Positions 6,683 through 31,544 of a stretch of DNA of 31,688 nucleotides are shown one piece after another. Position numbers and translations under genes: made by a program. How positions within the stretch are numbered: position 1 is the first letter of the stretch; each line of letters begins with the position of its first letter. The notes under the pieces were generated by a model. It had not been told where the DNA came from, did no database searches, and worked only from the letters and a program-made list of their open reading frames with translations. Source of the stretch: a virus. The stretch is from IMG/VR virus record IMGVR_UViG_3300029319_000278, positions 1 through 31,688 of that record; one strand, 5' to 3'.

Positions 6683-9600
6683 ATGACAGTTAGCAGCACA
6701 ACCAAAAGGAACAGCTACACAGGGAATGGTTCTACCACCACCTTTGCTTACTCCTTCAAGATATTTGACGATGACGATATCACTGTCATCCTGCGCACCA
6801 CAGCAACTGGCACAGAGACTGTGCAGACCAAAACAACGCATTACAGCGTGACGGGTGTTGGTAATTCAAGTGGTGGTAATGTGGTGTTTGGCAGTGCGCC
6901 AACATCTGCGCAAACAGTGGTGCTGCTACGCCAGACTGCGCAGACACAGGCCACAGATTACACTCCTAACGATCCGTTCCCTGCCGCCTCACATGAGGAT
7001 GCGCTTGATAAGCTAACCCTCATGACACAAGACCAGCAAGACGAGCTTGACCGCTCCATCAAGCTATCTCGCACAAACACCATGACATCGACTGAGTTTA
7101 CAGTCACTGCCACAAACCGCGCTAACAAGATATTTGCTTTTGATAGCAGCGGAGAGCTATCTGTCACGCAAGAGATTGGTACATTTAGAGGTGATTGGGC
7201 TGCAAGCACATCATACGCAGTGCGTGATTTAGTTAAAGACACTAGCACCAATAACATCTTCATTGTGAACGAGGCACATACTAGCTCTGGATCACAGCCG
7301 CTTACCACTAACGCCAACAGTGCTAAGTATGATTTGATTGTAGACGCTGCGGCGGCTACCACAAGCGCGTCAGCAGCGGCCTCATCTGCCACGGCAGCGG
7401 CATCAAGCGCTTCAACAGCCAGCACACAGGCGTCAAATGCGAGTTCAAGCGCCTCAACGGCCTCAACACAGGCATCAAATGCAGCGTCATCTGCCACGGC
7501 GGCAGCTTCATCTGCTACAGCGGCAGCAGCATCAGCCACCTCTGCTGCAACAGCGCTAGATAATTTCGACGATATTTTCTTAGGCGCAAAATCAAGCGAC
7601 CCAAGCACTGACAATGACGGTGATGCTTTAACCACGGGCGACATCTACTTCAATACAAGCAGCAACACACTACGGGTTTTCAACGGATCTTCTTTCCAAG
7701 ATGCCAGTATCAGCACCACTGCTACAACAGCAGAGTTAAACATAATGGACGGGGATACCTCTGCTTCTTCTACCACCGTGGCAGACGCTGACCGCGTGGT
7801 GTTCAACGATGCTGGTACGATGAAGCAAGTGGCAGTCACGGACCTGGCTGCCTACTTTGATGACGAAATCACAGCAATGCCTAACCTTGTCACAACAGGC
7901 GCACTCAACTCTGGCAGCATCACAAGCGGCTTTGGTGCGATAGACAACGGTTCTAGCAATATTACCACCACTGGCGTTGGAACATTCGGCTCACTGGATA
8001 TCAGCGGAGATATAGATGTCGATGGCACCACTAACCTTGATGTTGTGGACATTGACGGTGCTGTAGATATGGCGTCCACATTGCAAGTTGACGGCGCAAT
8101 CACATCATCTGCTGGTGCAACAATCACCACTGCCGACAACACCGCACAGCTTACTCTAAAATCTACAGATGCAGATGCAGGTGTTGGACCTGTTTTAGAA
8201 TTAGTGAGGGACTCTGGAAGCCCTGCTGACTCTGACCTTCTTGGTACGATTAACTTTATAGCTGATGATGATGCTGGCAACGCATCTACATTTGCCAGCA
8301 TTTCAACTCAAATTGGAGATGCTTCTAACGGAACTGAAAGTTGTGGATTACAAATAAAAGCTATGAGTGGTGGCTCTCTTGTTAGTAGAGCGGACTTTTT
8401 AGTATCAGAGACAATTTTTAACAATGGCAGCATAGACTTAGACTTTCGTGTCGAGTCTAACGGCAACGCCAACATGCTGTTTGTTGATGCAGGAAATGAT
8501 AAGGCTGGTATAGGCACTAACTCCCCATCAACGGCTTTAGATGTTGAAGGCGCAGGAGTGCCTTTCTCGATCAACAGTAACAACAGCAATCAATACAAAA
8601 TTCAATTAGAAGACGCTGGAACTGTTAGATCATATTTGGGTGCAAGTTCTACAGCTTCTTTTGTTGTAGCAGATTCTTCAGTTTCTGAAGCCATGCGAAT
8701 TACAAGCGGCGGTTTGGTGGCTATCGGCAATTCTACACCAGACAGTTTTAACGCTAACGCTAGAAACCTTGTTGTTGGCACTGGTTCTGGCTCTAACGGC
8801 ATCAGTATTTTTGCAGGAAACTCATCAGATAGTGCAATATTCTTTGCTGATAACGGCAGCACAGCCACAGGCCAGATAAATTATAAACACGCAGATAATG
8901 CCTTTACGTTTCATACGAATGGTGGAAATGAGCGTATGCGCATTAGTGATGATGATATCTTGTTTGGAACAACATCTACAAGTTTGAGCGATGCTGGAAT
9001 AAAGTTTGCTAACACGTCTGCCACCCACAAGTATGCAGTGTTTACACATACAGCTAGTAGTGCAAATGAATCCTTACTTTACATCAATAGGCAAAGTTCA
9101 GATGGAACTCTTATAGACTTTAGAAAAGCCAACGCAACGTCTGGAACGATTGGTACAATATCGGGAGATATTTTTATAGCAAATGCCGTAGATGTTGGCC
9201 TTTATCTTGAATCAACCACAACTGACCACATTGCACCGTGTGACGCATCAGGTTCAAAAAGAGATGATGCGATTGACTTAGGCGCATCAAGCGCACGTTT
9301 TGATGACGTATTTGCTACTAACGGCACCATACAAACATCAGACGAAAACGAAAAGCAAAACATTGCAGCGCTTACAAGTGCAGAAATAACTGCTGCAAAA
9401 GCAATAAGCAAATTGTTCAAGACATTTAAATGGAAAAGTAAAGTTACAGCTAAAGAAGAAAAAGGTGAAACAGCCCGCACTCACACAGGCGTAATTGCAC
9501 AAGAGGTGCAGACAGCGATGTCTGACGCTGGATTAGATGCGAGCAAGTATGCGTTTTGGTGTAGCGACACTTGGACAAATGATGATGGAAACCAACAGAC

Positions 9601-13322: not shown

Positions 13323-13455
13323 AGCACAAAAGATCTCCCTCTCCGTTTATTACCCACGTTCCAGTCATCAGCCCATGTGTTTCTCCGCAAAGATCACATG
13401 TGACTGTCTGACCAGAAGGCGAGTATCGTCTTTTTGTTTTAGTTTTTCTCGGCAC
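13252..13455 (-). CDS. Small zinc-binding protein candidate (GTG start)
   Basis: The 67-aa product has a basic N-terminus (PRKTKTKRR) and cysteines at 20, 23, 44 and 51 (CDLC and a later C-x6-C) with His27 near the first pair, consistent with one structural zinc site. The GTG start lies 17 bases inside the upstream HTH gene. Small zinc ribbon proteins of phages often bind nucleic acid or host polymerase, but there is no direct sign of which. The 3' part overlaps the next gene by 71 bases. Confidence 0.6.
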   Translation of the reverse strand: MPRKTKTKRRYSPSGQTVTCDLCGETHGLMTGTWVINGEGDLLCYGYGKNCFATRVAQSERCADSST

Positions 13456-18442: not shown

Positions 18443-18658
18443 ACTGTCAACAAAATCCATGATATTTGAAACATAGTTTACAGACACACAGTGTTAACAC
18501 ATGTTAGCAAAGTGTAGTGGTAACAACGTAGCATTTAATTATTTTTAAATAAAAAAAGTGTCTACATTGTAAGTGTAGACACTGTGTTATAACATTGTAT
18601 GTAAGTGTAGACATTGTGTTGTAACATTGTGTTTTCATATTCCTCCCTAGAGAAAACT
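18443..18658. other. Repeat-bearing AT-rich intergenic region, candidate replication origin
   Basis: No gene is visible in this stretch between convergent genes. It holds TGTCAACA (18445-18452), a perfect palindrome GTGTTAACAC (18491-18500), an AT-only-like tract (about 18535-18557), a 10-bp inverted repeat AGTGTCTACA / TGTAGACACT with a 7-base spacer (18557-18583), and two 28-base direct repeats. Iteron-like repeats beside an AT-rich tract are the usual make-up of a replication origin. A regulator-binding array is the alternative. Confidence 0.45.
18571..18630. repeat. Two 28-base direct repeats, period 32 (iteron-like)
   Basis: Copy one is 18571-18598 and copy two is 18603-18630; they differ at two positions. 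Each begins AAGTGTAGACA and ends TAACATTGT. The 11-mer TAACATTGTGT at 18622-18632 recurs exactly at 21275-21285 in the control region of operon B. The first copy also forms the right arm of the inverted repeat at 18557-18583. Confidence 0.85.
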
Positions 18659-18659
18659 T

Positions 18660-18686
18660 AGAGAGGCTCACGCCTCTCTCTTTTTT
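18660..18686 (+). terminator. Intrinsic terminator between convergent operons
   Basis: AGAGAGGC (18660-18667) pairs with GCCTCTCT (18672-18679) around the loop TCAC, followed after one C by a run of T (18681-18686). It should end + strand transcription from the HTH-methyltransferase-nuclease cassette. The stop codon of the convergent - strand gene lies in the loop, so the same hairpin may also help end operon B, although the T tract on that side is poor. Confidence 0.75.
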
Positions 18687-19003
18687 GCAATCCGTTCTAC
18701 GTTTGCGGCATATTGATCTACAAATGCTTGCGTCACTGAGTTTACTTTCTGCCTGTCAGTGTCATCCTCTTTGTAAATCTCGTCCTTTTCTAAGCCAAAA
18801 AAGATATTGTTTTCATCTGCAATGGTTTTAAGTCTTGCCATCAGCAGACAAGACGTTGCCCACCCCATAAGTTCATCGACGTTTATGTCGTCCTGAAAGC
18901 CATTTGTTTTGTCCCAGAAGTGGTGCATGCACCATTCTGTAATCAAACTAAACTCTTGCCTCGTTAGCTTAAAAGTAAGCATTTCACTTTTCTTTGCTGG
19001 CAT
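18668..19003 (-). CDS. Hypothetical protein, last gene of early operon B
   Basis: The 111-aa product starts with MPAKKSEMLTFKLTRQEFSLI, resembling the opening of small ribbon- or helix-type phage proteins, then a helix with WATSCLLMARLKTIADENN and a charged C-terminus (AKKREA). No function is recognised. The shared leader GAAAGGATCAG lies four bases before the ATG, and the start overlaps the upstream HTH gene's stop (TAATG). The stop is in the terminator loop. Confidence 0.7.
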   Translation of the reverse strand: MPAKKSEMLTFKLTRQEFSLITEWCMHHFWDKTNGFQDDINVDELMGWATSCLLMARLKTIADENNIFFGLEKDEIYKEDDTDRQKVNSVTQAFVDQYAANVERIAKKREA

Positions 19004-19185: not shown

Positions 19186-19202
19186 GCTATCCTCTCTCTC
19201 AG

Positions 19203-19267
19203 TGACTGGTTTTGTTGATCCTTCACCAGTCATGGGTCAAGCCGGATGCCCCCGACTTGGCCCTTTC
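19203..19267 (-). ncRNA. Tandem hairpins with hammerhead-like order (possibly degenerate)
   Basis: On the - strand, GAAA (19267-19264) is followed by a 12-position hairpin (19263-19234; one mismatch, one G-U), one A (19233), a perfect 8-bp hairpin UGACUGGU / ACCAGUCA (19232-19203), then CUGAGAGA. This is the same order as the type II hammerhead at 20234-20293, but the UH cleavage dinucleotide and the exact CUGANGA are lost, and no stem II is found. It may be a decayed ribozyme or an unrelated structured leader. Confidence 0.4.
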
Positions 19268-19277
19268 ACTTATTAAT

Positions 19278-19451
19278 CTAATGCACACGCTCGTAATCAA
19301 TCCCCTCTACCCATTCACACCAACCCTCTTCCCAATCTGTTTCATTGTAGTCCTGCCATTCTTCGGAACGATCACGGTTTATTTCTTCAAGAACTCGGTC
19401 TATATCCCATGTATGCGTTAAACCTGTTTCTATGTTGCGAACTAAAATCAT
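19278..19451 (-). CDS. Small acidic hypothetical protein
   Basis: The 57-aa product from ATG 19451 starts MILVRNIETGLTHTWDID and is very rich in Glu, Asp and Trp (EEWQDYNETDWEEGWCEW). Such acidic proteins sometimes mimic DNA or bind host regulators, which is only speculation here. The shared leader GAAAGGATCAA lies four bases before the ATG, which decides the start over a longer frame to 19499 that would run through the structured leader. Confidence 0.7.
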   Translation of the reverse strand: MILVRNIETGLTHTWDIDRVLEEINRDRSEEWQDYNETDWEEGWCEWVEGIDYERVH

Positions 19452-19466
19452 TGTTTTGATCCTTTC

Positions 19467-19534
19467 CTGATATGCCATTGCTGGCGGTTTGAAGCCCACT
19501 GACGGCCTCTTGCCGTCAATGGGTAGGGTATCAG
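19467..19534 (-). ncRNA. Three-way-junction-like structured leader
   Basis: On the - strand, CUGAUA (19534-19529) pairs with UAUCAG (19472-19467) and encloses two hairpins: an 11-position stem with one mismatch (19523-19513 with 19505-19495, 7-base loop) and GCCA-GCAA-UGGC with a GNRA tetraloop (19485-19474). The closing stem contains the upstream gene's UGA stop codon and ends where the GAAAGGAUC ribosome binding site begins. It could control translation or RNA processing. The fold is read by eye and its energy is not computed. Confidence 0.5.
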
Positions 19535-19683
19535 CGCAAGTTTAGTAGTTGCGCGGGTGTGAAGCATTCCGGAGCGGACCAGTCATTGACCATGCCGCAA
19601 CCTGTCATGATGTTGATCACAAGAAACATAACCAACAAATAGAAACTAATTAGAGTTATTGCTCCGAACATAATTTTAAGCAT
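19531..19683 (-). CDS. 50-aa membrane or lipoprotein-like peptide
   Basis: The frame from ATG 19683 (overlapping the upstream stop, TAATG) to TGA 19533-19531 encodes a short Lys-containing N-terminus, a hydrophobic segment (about 5-25, with ITLISFYLLVMFLVINI) and then MTGCG, which could be a poor lipobox with Cys29 as the lipid site, and a polar C-terminus with one more Cys. It is either a small single-pass membrane protein or a lipoprotein. Such early phage proteins can act in superinfection exclusion, but no function is shown here. Confidence 0.6.
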   Translation of the reverse strand: MLKIMFGAITLISFYLLVMFLVINIMTGCGMVNDWSAPECFTPAQLLNLR

Positions 19684-19895
19684 TACCTAATCCCCACTAT
19701 GCGCTGTCTGCCACTCTTGGTTGTTTCTATGTCAACGTCTACGCTTTGTCCTTCCATGCCAGCATGGATGATATATGCGTCTGATATATTGGCTTTTGTG
19801 CGTATGGCTTGCCCACTGGTAAAAGTAATTTCAAAAGCTGGGTTGCCATAAACCGAATTTTTCAATCGCTTGATTGTTTTGATTGTCTTTCTCAT
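19683..19895 (-). CDS. Small hypothetical basic protein
   Basis: The 70-aa product has a Lys/Arg-rich N-terminus (MRKTIKTIKRLKNS) followed by strands (FEITFTSGQAIRTK, SVDVDIETTKSGRQRIVGI), suggesting a small beta-barrel-like fold. Start and stop overlap both neighbours (TAATG), so translation is probably coupled. Function unknown. Confidence 0.65.
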   Translation of the reverse strand: MRKTIKTIKRLKNSVYGNPAFEITFTSGQAIRTKANISDAYIIHAGMEGQSVDVDIETTKSGRQRIVGIR

Positions 19896-20203
19896 TAGTC
19901 TGCCCTCACTTCCATAAGCTCGCGGTGTTCTTTCTCGCAGATGGCTGCAACCTCTAAACGAATTGGAACACTAAACAACTTGTACCATTTGCCATTACCG
20001 CAAAATTCCTTGTGGTATTTCTTGGCGGCATTGATTGCAAAATAGGTCCATAGCTTGACAGCCTTTGCGGTGTCATAGTCACCCTTGTCGAAACGCTTTT
20101 GTAATAAAGCCTCTATGTGTTCGCGTTGCTGGCGGTATAGGTCGCCATCATTCAAAGCAAACAGGTATAGCTCTTGCGCGTCTATACTGAGTCCATTGTC
20201 CAT
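19895..20203 (-). CDS. Hypothetical helical protein behind the hammerhead ribozyme
   Basis: The 102-aa product from ATG 20203 is mostly helical: SIDAQELYLFALNDGDLYRQQREHIEALLQKRFDKGDYDTAKAVKLWTYFAINAAKKY, then GKWYKLFSVPIRLEVAAICEKEHRELM. The KRFDKGDYD...A...W pattern occurs in other small phage proteins of unknown role. AAAGGATCAAAG lies five bases before the ATG and fixes the start; the open frame to 20347 runs through the ribozyme. Its mRNA would start at 20261 after ribozyme cleavage, with a 5'-hydroxyl and a leader of 58 bases. Confidence 0.75.
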   Translation of the reverse strand: MDNGLSIDAQELYLFALNDGDLYRQQREHIEALLQKRFDKGDYDTAKAVKLWTYFAINAAKKYHKEFCGNGKWYKLFSVPIRLEVAAICEKEHRELMEVRAD

Positions 20204-20233
20204 TGTCTTTGATCCTTTTTTATGTTTCTGATG

Positions 20234-20293
20234 GGCCTCATCAGTACCGACACAATCGGTAGACATAGCGCATTGCTGCGCCATGTTTCGGCC
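20234..20293 (-). ncRNA. Type II hammerhead ribozyme
   Basis: Read on the - strand 5' to 3': GGCC (20293-20290), GAAA (20289-20286), stem III CAUGGCGC (20285-20278) with loop AGCAAU and GCGCUAUG (20271-20264), U16.1 and C17 (20263, 20262), stem I UACCGA (20261-20256) with loop UUGUG and UCGGUA (20250-20245), CUGAUGA (20244-20238), GGCC (20237-20234). The core nucleotides CUGAUGA, GAAA and the GUC triplet are all present, with A15.1-U16.1, U1.1-A2.1 and G10.1-C11.1 closing pairs. Stem III has 9 pairs, stem I 6, stem II 4; stem II extends by an A-C mismatch and two A-U pairs to 20296 and 20231. Stem II is the open one, so this is type II. Cleavage is expected between 20262 and 20261. The first G belongs to the upstream gene's UAG stop. 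Confidence 0.93.
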
Positions 20294-20520
20294 TATGAAT
20301 AGCATGGTGTTGATGGCAGCGCATATAGCTTGCAAAATGTTTGACAAGCCTTATCAGTGCCATGCGTCTTGATTGCGCTATTAAATTGCTGCTTGGTAAT
20401 ATTGCGTCCTGTTTTAGTATCGCGTAATTGCACCGGATAGGTTTCATTAGATGACCTGTCAGTGATAACAAGCCATCCCGACCAGTATTCAGCGGTGAAT
20501 GATTTTGTTTCTATAAACAT
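20293..20520 (-). CDS. Hypothetical protein upstream of the ribozyme
   Basis: The 75-aa product begins with strands (MFIETKSFTAEYWSGWLVITDRSS), then TYPVQLRDTKTGRNITKQQFNSAIKTHGTDKACQTFC, a beta-beta-beta-alpha-like order. No family recognised. The shared leader GAAAGGATCAA lies two bases before the ATG. Its TAG stop (20295-20293) is built into stem II of the hammerhead, so a ribosome terminating here would cover the ribozyme's GAAA core. Confidence 0.7.
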   Translation of the reverse strand: MFIETKSFTAEYWSGWLVITDRSSNETYPVQLRDTKTGRNITKQQFNSAIKTHGTDKACQTFCKLYALPSTPCYS

Positions 20521-29126: not shown

Positions 29127-31544
29127 ATGGCGCGTGTTTCAACTATCATCACAAACTTTCAGTCTGGGGAGTTTTCTCCGCGCTTGGAAGGGCGCATAGA
29201 TTTACAGAAATATAACTCTGGCGCACAAAAACTAGAGAACATGCTTATCTTTCCTCAAGGGGGAGTTACCCGTCGTCCAGGCACCAAGTTTGCTGGACAG
29301 TCTAAAGATGGCGGCAAAGTGCGTCTTATCAACTTTGAGTTTAGCGATGAGCAGGCATATGTGCTTGAGTTTGGTGCAAACTACATACGTTTTTACAAAG
29401 ACGAAGGAATACTTACTGAGGCAACAAAAACGATTACGGGTGCTACAGCAGCCAACCCCGTTGTCATTACGTCAAACTCTCATGGATTCAGCAACGGAGA
29501 TAGAGTTTTCATTTCTAGTGTTGTTGGTATGGTTGAGCTAAATAACAGAGAGTTTACAGTAGCCAATCAAACAACAAATACTTTTGAATTATCTGGCATC
29601 AACGGCAGTGCGTTTACGGCATACAGCAGTGGTGGCACTGCTGGTAAGATTGTTGAGGTAACAACCACATACTCTGCAACAGAGGTGTTTGAGCTAAATC
29701 ATGTGCAGTCAGCAGATGTTTTGTTCTTGGCGCACAAAGACCATGAGCCAGCAAAGTTAACAAGAACTACGACAACTAGCTTTACGCTAGCTGACATAGA
29801 CTTTATTGATGGGCCTTATGAAGATGAAAACTCAACAACGACAACCATTACAGCAAACGCAAACACTGGCACGGTGACACTTACCGCGTCGGCAGATTTG
29901 TTTGATGCGTCTAAGGATGTCGGCTCTATATTTAGATTTAGAGATGTGATTGAGGTATCTCACGATGAGTGGTCTACAAGCGATAATTACTCACAAGATG
30001 ACATCATTCATTTCAACGGCAACGTCTACAAAAAAACAGATTCAGGAACTAACGAGTCAACTGGCGCACAGGCACCTGTACATCTTTCTGGCTCAGAAGT
30101 TTATGGCAACCACACTTGGCAGTACCAACACAGTGGCACGGGCTTTGTAAAAATTACCGCTGTTACAAATGCAACTACAGCGACTGCAATCGTTCAAAAC
30201 AGCTCAGTTAATAGTGTTATCAATGACTTAGTGCTTCCTGCAAACGCAACAGCAGGAACAACAAACTGGTCGCGTGGTGCGTTTAGTATTCGTAACGGCT
30301 TTCCAAGAGCCATTGCCTTTTTTGAAGAGCGTTTGTTTTTTGCTGGCACTACGGCTCAACCGCAAACAATATTTGGCTCTGTCACGGCTGACTTTGAGAA
30401 CCACACTCCTGGTACTGTGGATGACAATGCAATCAACGTGACGATTGCTTCAGACCAAGTAAACGTCATCAAGCACATGATACAGGGACGCTTTCTGCAA
30501 ATCCTAACGTCAAGCGCAGAGTTTACGATGTCTGGCGGTACAGGCACACAACCTATAACACCAACGAATGTAAATGTACTGCGAGAAACTACTTTCGGAT
30601 CATCGAATGTGCGCCCGATACGTGCTGGAGCAAGCACCATCCTGATCCAGAAAGGACAAGAGAAAGTCAAAGAGGTTACCTTTGACTTAGATACCGATGG
30701 TCTTGTTGGACGTGATTTAACCGTCTTGGCAGAACATCTGGCGCGTGGTGGTCTGACTGATATGATTTGGCAGCAAGAACCAGAGCTAATCTTATGGTTT
30801 GTGCGTAATGATGGTGTTTTGATTGGCCTTTCTTATGACCCACAGAACCAAACAGTTGGGTGGCATAGCCATCCTATTGGTAACAGTGGCGTGGTTGAAA
30901 GCATTACTGCAATACCATCAGGTGAAGAAGACCAGGTTTACTTGTCAGTAAAACGCACAATCAACAGCGCAACTGTACGCCACATTGTGTTCATGGAAAA
31001 GATTGAGTTTGGTACTGATGTATCAGATGCGTTCTTTGTAGACTCTGGTCTGACATACGACAGTAGCGCCACAACCACCATAAGTGGGTTGAACCATCTT
31101 GAGGGGGAGACGGTGCAAATTCTTGCAGATGGATCGGCGCACGCAGACAAAACTGTCTCAGGTGGTGCCATAACACTGGATCGTAGCGCTTCTACGGTGC
31201 ATGTAGGCTACTCTTTCGACTCCAAGGTACAAACCCTGCGGATGGAAGCTGGAGCCAATGACGGCGTCTCTCAGGGCAAGATAAAGCGTATTCATGGCAC
31301 AACAGTGCGGTTCATAGATACAGTGGGTGCAGAGATTGGCCCAGATGAAAGCAATCTTGATCGTTTGCCGTTTCGTGATAGTTCTATGTCGATGGACACA
31401 GCTATTCCGATGTTTGATGGCGACAAAGAAATATCTTTCCCATCTGGCTATGATAATGATGCAAGGGTATTTATTAGGCAGTCTCAGCCGTTGCCCATGA
31501 CCGTCTTAGCAGTGATGAGGAGGTCTAATACATTCGATGCTTAA
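29127..31544 (+). CDS. Tail tubular protein B (T7 gp12-like nozzle)
   Basis: The 805-aa protein starts ITNFQSGEFSPRLEGRIDLQKYNSGAQKLENM and LIFPQGGVTRRPGTKFAG, the conserved beginning of podovirus tail nozzle proteins. It has a beta-rich inserted region (about 95-330), and FFEERLFFAGT plus QPQTIFGS, the recurrent nozzle motif. T7 gp12 has 794 aa. It forms the hexameric nozzle to which fibres attach and through which DNA leaves. The gp13-like gene starts eight bases before its stop. Confidence 0.92.
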   Translation: MARVSTIITNFQSGEFSPRLEGRIDLQKYNSGAQKLENMLIFPQGGVTRRPGTKFAGQSKDGGKVRLINFEFSDEQAYVLEFGANYIRFYKDEGILTEATKTITGATAANPVVITSNSHGFSNGDRVFISSVVGMVELNNREFTVANQTTNTFELSGINGSAFTAYSSGGTAGKIVEVTTTYSATEVFELNHVQSADVLFLAHKDHEPAKLTRTTTTSFTLADIDFIDGPYEDENSTTTTITANANTGTVTLTASADLFDASKDVGSIFRFRDVIEVSHDEWSTSDNYSQDDIIHFNGNVYKKTDSGTNESTGAQAPVHLSGSEVYGNHTWQYQHSGTGFVKITAVTNATTATAIVQNSSVNSVINDLVLPANATAGTTNWSRGAFSIRNGFPRAIAFFEERLFFAGTTAQPQTIFGSVTADFENHTPGTVDDNAINVTIASDQVNVIKHMIQGRFLQILTSSAEFTMSGGTGTQPITPTNVNVLRETTFGSSNVRPIRAGASTILIQKGQEKVKEVTFDLDTDGLVGRDLTVLAEHLARGGLTDMIWQQEPELILWFVRNDGVLIGLSYDPQNQTVGWHSHPIGNSGVVESITAIPSGEEDQVYLSVKRTINSATVRHIVFMEKIEFGTDVSDAFFVDSGLTYDSSATTTISGLNHLEGETVQILADGSAHADKTVSGGAITLDRSASTVHVGYSFDSKVQTLRMEAGANDGVSQGKIKRIHGTTVRFIDTVGAEIGPDESNLDRLPFRDSSMSMDTAIPMFDGDKEISFPSGYDNDARVFIRQSQPLPMTVLAVMRRSNTFDA

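Follow-up and report, generated by a model that had tools for sequence, protein, structure and literature searches.

Hammerhead ribozymes that flank phage genes have been described before. In the parts of the report by Perreault et al. (2011, PMC3088659) considered here, clustered phage hammerheads cleave, some of them both in vitro and in Escherichia coli, and those of prophages were proposed to cut long phage transcripts into shorter mRNAs. Several ribozyme classes also share locations, and such locations yielded pistol, hatchet, and twister-sister (Weinberg and colleagues, PMC10085705; see also PMC4604425). The subject here is operon B of the 31.7-kb viral record IMGVR_UViG_3300029319_000278, analyzed as a whole and called the window below, and its counterparts in related phages, a group of uncultured marine phages. 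Read leftward on the minus strand, this operon spans about 21230 to 18668, adjoins the terminase gene, and carries a type II hammerhead in one of its long intercistronic gaps. Intercistronic phage hammerheads are known in kind. What appear to be new are a refolding hairpin directly behind the ribozyme, the exchange of hammerheads with an unrelated RNA termed element B, and the families B and C, none of which was found in Rfam or in a literature that was incompletely covered. It is probable, in our judgment, that the operon mRNA is cut by the hammerhead at a point between two cistrons and that the refolded downstream product makes cutting irreversible, perhaps also protecting the new end.

The window ribozyme resembles the type II hammerheads of Rfam family RF02276, as far as the consulted parts of PMC3088659 describe them, in its open stem II, its CUGANGA/GAAA/GUC core, its phage context, and its intergenic position. 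Its parts, and the gene and refolding hairpin that follow them, are:

20234..20293, minus strand: type II hammerhead ribozyme, with core, GAAA, and GUC in type II order and stem II open
20290-20293 with 20234-20237, minus strand: stem II, GGCC/GGCC
20286-20289, minus strand: GAAA, followed by the stem III hairpin
between 20262 and 20261, minus strand: predicted cut at the GUC cleavage triplet
20245-20261, minus strand: stem I hairpin
20238-20244, minus strand: core CUGAUGA
20228..20244, minus strand: refolding ("trap") hairpin CUGAUG-AGGCC-CAUCAG, which cannot coexist with stem II and the active core
19895..20203, minus strand: gene g06, 102 amino acids, without a PHROG match, directly downstream of the hammerhead

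The layout reads GGCC GAAA (stem III) GUC, cut, (stem I) CUGAUGA GGCC, and its first G doubles as the last base of the upstream UAG stop codon (UAG/GCC). The preliminary description of this DNA had correctly placed a hammerhead in the gap 20204-20292; it is a type II ribozyme with a complete core and is predicted to self-cleave after GUC. A lineage-specific model, R3, of which the window is one seed, scores it at 80.8 bits (E 1.7e-20), and a descriptor scan finds the same motif in many relatives (labeled L below), whose genes were called by a simple script. Across 14 distinct type II hammerheads, 99.3% of pair cells are standard and 10 of the 20 pairs change on both sides, namely 1 in stem II, 4 in stem III, and 5 in stem I, such that all three stems show compensatory changes among relatives. 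These double changes amount to 26 against 7.0 in shuffles, none of 500 shuffles reaching the observed value. The ribozymes start at the upstream stop codon or within about a dozen nucleotides (nt) of it and mostly end 30-36 nt ahead of the next start codon. Five further loci in relatives carry type I hammerheads, and in 20 long viral records both hammerheads and element B are confined to the operon and lie on its strand.

Core position 7 (N7) is left free in hammerheads. When the whole gap 20204-20292 is folded, a CUGAUG:CAUCAG pairing emerges just behind stem II, in which N7 is paired. Every one of the 23 distinct type II hammerheads has this trap hairpin, with at least 5 base pairs (bp), even where the tail is shifted, compared with 4.5% of shuffled tails. 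The pair at N7 is U-A in 8 and C-G in 7, a pattern matched by 0 of 500 shuffles; since both versions occur within several subgroups, one inherited change is no explanation. Once cleaved, the downstream RNA is predicted to fold into two directly adjacent hairpins. The type I hammerheads of relatives have a comparable hairpin, UGUC-AUAA-GACA, which begins exactly at the cleavage point and is compensated in L109 to UGCC-AUAG-GGCA. We read the trap hairpin as a product trap, its main rival being an off-state of the uncut ribozyme. A conserved downstream hairpin that pairs with the catalytic strand and tracks N7 distinguishes these ribozymes from RF02276. A further, possible difference concerns the pseudoknot between loop I and the tail, which the consulted parts of PMC3088659 describe for type II hammerheads and which is common in them but not universal; here such pairing reaches at most 3 bp by eye and is inconsistent, the tail pairing with CUGANG instead.

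Some relatives carry element B, a 60-70-nt RNA, at the hammerhead site. It forms a three-way-junction RNA in which a short stem closes the element and two hairpins, one of the GGCAGGG type and one long, follow without intervening gaps. An alignment of 26 distinct sequences, which was fitted to the model and leans towards it, has 90.6% of its cells paired; both sides differ in 14 of the 24 pairs, and double-change cells number 90 against 34.8 in shuffles. The models R1 and R2 were both built from members, so that their alignments lean to the model structures; controls with slid columns support them. An alternative 3′ hairpin of element B, pairing the 3′ strand of P3 with GCC, was rejected, with 83% of cells paired and covariation not above shuffles (74 of 500). 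Few unpaired bases are invariant, namely a GAA linker and, in most members, a G-G mismatch, which weakly suggests an active site. Like the ribozymes found near hammerheads (PMC4604425, PMC10085705), element B is an unrelated conserved fold at hammerhead sites; it matches neither pistol, hatchet, or twister-sister nor any other Rfam family at E 1 or better. Rfam searches covered the window and 23 relatives, B or C being carried by 15 of the latter, and matched neither element up to E 1. Three cultured phages of the HTVC010P type, two of them as partial sequences, were scanned as well; they gave no match to the B model and none at E 1 or better to the hammerhead model.

The exchange is seen at orthologous genes. 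The orthologues of g06 are preceded by a type II hammerhead, by B, or by neither; ortholog cluster 2 by a hammerhead of either type or by B; cluster 4 by B or a type II hammerhead; and cluster 5 by B or by element C, described below. Element B occupies sites where known ribozymes are found in other relatives. L009 and L010, which carry B, fall inside a type II hammerhead clade of the g06 tree, at 90% DNA identity to L006, and share with that clade similar sequence ahead of the start codon. Of 35 operons that are near-complete, 16 contain a hammerhead and 8 contain B, with no operon containing both (Fisher p = 0.003, uncorrected for ancestry). The window and L002 differ by a clean 73-nt insertion or deletion of the hammerhead, flanked by CATA. 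The clustered prophage hammerheads of PMC3088659 are similar in the proposed splitting of long phage transcripts; compared with what the consulted parts of that report describe, the present operons differ in usually having one hammerhead each, exchanged with non-hammerhead RNAs at orthologous sites.

Two side observations concern operon gaps of relatives. A candidate of three tandem hairpins, GGCAUGGGCCAGCAAUGGCCCUGCC first, lies in operon gaps at L016:7083-7193, L024:3703-3798, and L026:4952-5053, and matches R1 at most marginally. In operon-B gaps of many relatives, for example L005, L083, and L106, the RNA element is often separated from the ribosome binding site (RBS) by the word CACUAGCAA.

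The hammerhead gap is one of three. The preliminary description listed long gaps at 19186-19277 (92 nt), 19452-19530 (79 nt), and 20204-20292 (89 nt), with exact coordinates, in an operon whose other genes indeed overlap or lie at most 23 nt apart. On the coding minus strand these gaps fold, relative to dinucleotide shuffles, at z = -4.4, -4.9, and -4.2, respectively, bearing out that they are structured; for each gap, 0 of 200 shuffles fold as well. A sliding scan of both strands places the most significant fold of the whole window in 19452-19530 (z = -6.3). In 80 non-redundant relatives, z lies below -3 for 62 of the 112 operon-B gaps that measure 50-130 nt, compared with only 2 of 112 length-matched coding segments. 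A single family of RNA elements had been proposed for these gaps. A recurring class of intercistronic structured RNA in operon B is strongly supported by covariation and by equivalent sites, and it comprises several families, not one: the window gaps hold the type II hammerhead, element C, and two independent hairpins, E and D, to which relatives add type I hammerheads and element B. The control of operon B attributed to these RNAs is an inference.

Element C fills the gap ahead of g03:

19474..19528, minus strand: element C, comprising a hairpin, a conserved sequence, and a second hairpin
19495-19523, minus strand: hairpin CUACCC-AUUGAC..GUCAGU, followed by the conserved GGGCUUYAAAYCGCC
19474-19485, minus strand: terminal hairpin GCCA-GCAA-UGGC
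19278..19451, minus strand: gene g03, 57 amino acids, downstream of element C

Across homologues, element C is the hairpin CCAUUGAC..GUCAGUGG followed by a conserved GGnCUUYAAAYCGC, and it precedes many unrelated genes. Model R2, of which the window is a seed, scores 65.5 bits over 19475-19528. At least 36 distinct forms have 99.2% of their cells paired. Double-change cells number 16 against 7.9 in shuffles, mostly in one apical pair; covariation support is real but modest because the stem is largely invariant in sequence. Neither the terminal GCCA-GCAA-UGGC hairpin nor the outer closing stem is general among homologues. The three-way-junction-like fold previously suggested for this gap was abandoned, its closing stem CUGAUA/UAUCAG being missing in the closest homologue, L002 (the same record as L030). 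A pseudoknot between loop and flank was likewise discarded by hand inspection, the linker being too short for an 11-bp stem.

The third gap holds two hairpins ahead of a regulator gene:

19234..19263, minus strand: element E, hairpin GGGCCAAGUCGGG-GGCA-UCCGGCUUGACCC, the first of gap 19186-19277
19203..19232, minus strand: element D, hairpin whose loop contains the operon's RBS sequence AAGGAUCA, without a start codon
19003..19185, minus strand: gene g02, a 60-amino-acid helix-turn-helix regulator, downstream of hairpins E and D

This gap had been called hammerhead-like, a label it does not bear out: where a CUGANGA core and an NUH triplet are required it offers CUGAGAG and CAU, so that both the core and a usable cleavage triplet are missing, and descriptor scans find no hammerhead in it. 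The core is also missing from its homologues in L002 and L060. These two relatives keep element E with three compensated pairs (A-U to G-C, A-U to C-G, and G-C to A-U) and an unchanged loop. Element D recurs at 24 further loci, every one directly upstream of a g02 homologue, with a stem rebuilt by compensation (20 double-change cells against 6.9 in shuffles) and a nearly invariant 14-nt loop containing AAGGAUCA. The two hairpins have different phylogenetic histories. A DNA operator is an unlikely identity for hairpin D, because variable arms and a fixed spacer oppose what an operator needs. Where the D loop is missing, other GC-rich hairpins flanked by GAGA...CACUAGC replace it, in the L106, L097, and L074 gaps before g02-like or neighboring genes. 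The RBS sequence of the leftward genes recurs in the loop of hairpin D.

In the mechanism we propose, the long gaps of operon B would be docking sites for compact RNA cassettes acting on the polycistronic mRNA. Cutting by the type II hammerhead would fall after GUC, close behind the stop codon of the upstream gene, leaving an upstream mRNA closed by the stem III hairpin and a 2′,3′-cyclic phosphate, and a downstream mRNA opening with the stem I hairpin and a 5′-OH. The sequence behind the ribozyme would then pair with the freed CUGANGA strand, producing a second hairpin stacked on stem I, which would remove stem II and the core and prevent re-ligation; the g06 mRNA may be shielded in this way. 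The corresponding sites of relatives would be served in an equivalent manner by type I hammerheads and element B. The two remaining gaps of the window hold C, E, and D, conserved RNAs to which no mechanism is assigned. A bolder extension, which we rate as doubtful, is that B, and possibly C, is an undescribed self-cleaving ribozyme class that replaces hammerheads, such that interchangeable cassettes with a refolding hairpin split one operon mRNA in marine podoviruses.

The trap hairpin could instead belong to a regulated hammerhead, its core kept out of reach until the trap is melted by a signal, a protein, or a ribosome in the course of translation, in the manner of a switch. That the trap excludes the core, is conserved, and covaries would suit such a device, as would the closeness of the active and trap folds, which differ by no more than about 2 kcal/mol in 7 of 8 members tested. 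Transcription order speaks for product trapping, since the ribozyme is transcribed in full before its pairing tail, and so does the competing hairpin of type I hammerheads, which begins exactly at the cleavage point as a product hairpin should. No conserved ligand-binding domain is seen in these RNAs, and we regard the switch as unlikely. Somewhat less likely still is the view that the elements are merely mRNA-stabilizing or translation-insulating hairpins, or sites for RNase III/E, with catalysis incidental. Elements C, D, and E show no ribozyme core, and strong folds are so frequent in the operon gaps of relatives that any stable hairpin may suffice; against this, the stems of the hammerhead vary around a core that does not, a pattern hard to account for unless catalysis is under selection. 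Very improbable is that the gaps are intrinsic terminators or internal promoters. Stable hairpins do occur in the operon, and terminator-like sites exist elsewhere, at about 18557-18681, but covariation follows the RNA fold and not a hairpin plus U-run, and neither a terminator (GC-rich hairpin with U run) nor a promoter was found in the three gaps on the operon strand.

Several observations weigh against cutting followed by product trapping. The window hammerhead scores only 25.6 bits (E 0.34) with RF02276, and that of L018 reaches 35.4; the window thus falls short of the gathering score of 37 bits, a cut-off that is a database score and not a structural one, and standard annotation would miss the ribozyme for that reason. 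In intact RNA the trap fold can be as stable as the active one or more so, by about 1.6 kcal/mol in the window and 6 in L106; a trap that rivals the active fold before cutting could be an off-state and not a product state. The Fisher test of exclusion between hammerhead and B ignores shared ancestry, and L083, a fragment, has a type I hammerhead together with B. Finally, L002 lacks any hammerhead although its g06 has 95% DNA identity to that of the window, which makes the element dispensable.

The remaining features concern the phage and its other signals. The tail and connector genes of the window match podoviruses, and its terminase is nearest to HTVC010P-type pelagiphages, at about 50% identity (TerL); one of these, Greip EXVC021P, likewise has a small divergent operon beside TerL. 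No cultured phage has similar DNA in the operon B region. A host call through a contig of an Acidimicrobiaceae metagenome-assembled genome, the sole genome match with a 50%-identical TerL, was set aside as not informative. The PHROG matches of g02 are transcriptional regulators (best E 5e-8). A near-uniform RBS precedes the leftward genes, with 11 minus-strand copies against 0.6 expected and 0 on the plus strand:

21209, 20791, 20531, 20217, 19464, 19016, 16020, 15945, and 14755, minus strand: RBS AAGGATCA sites

Elsewhere in the window, 18541-18690 contains imperfect repeats (GTGTAGACATTGTGTTGTAACATTG and variants), with terminator-like hairpins between converging genes and a strong plus-strand fold. 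Strong folds with z of about -6 also lie at 29731-29850, antisense to the tail gene, and at 13351-13440 on the minus strand, between converging operons. An Rfam isrG match at 7392-7554 falls far under its gathering score and was treated as chance. In L005, positions 8135-8210 of the minus strand match the suhB/mmgR small RNA family (34.7 bits, cut-off 41, E 0.002), possibly a small RNA derived from the host, which would hint at an alphaproteobacterium.

What role hammerheads play in bacteria and phages is still open, and here close relatives have, at one orthologous site, a type I hammerhead, a type II hammerhead, another conserved RNA, or nothing. Given the exact 73-nt presence/absence pair formed by the window and L002, together with the site variants, function becomes testable by simple swaps. 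The covarying refolding hairpin offers a concrete hypothesis for how cutting might be made irreversible and the new mRNA end protected. Taken as a whole, the comparison suggests that each gap of operon B may carry an exchangeable device by which the shared mRNA is cut or controlled.
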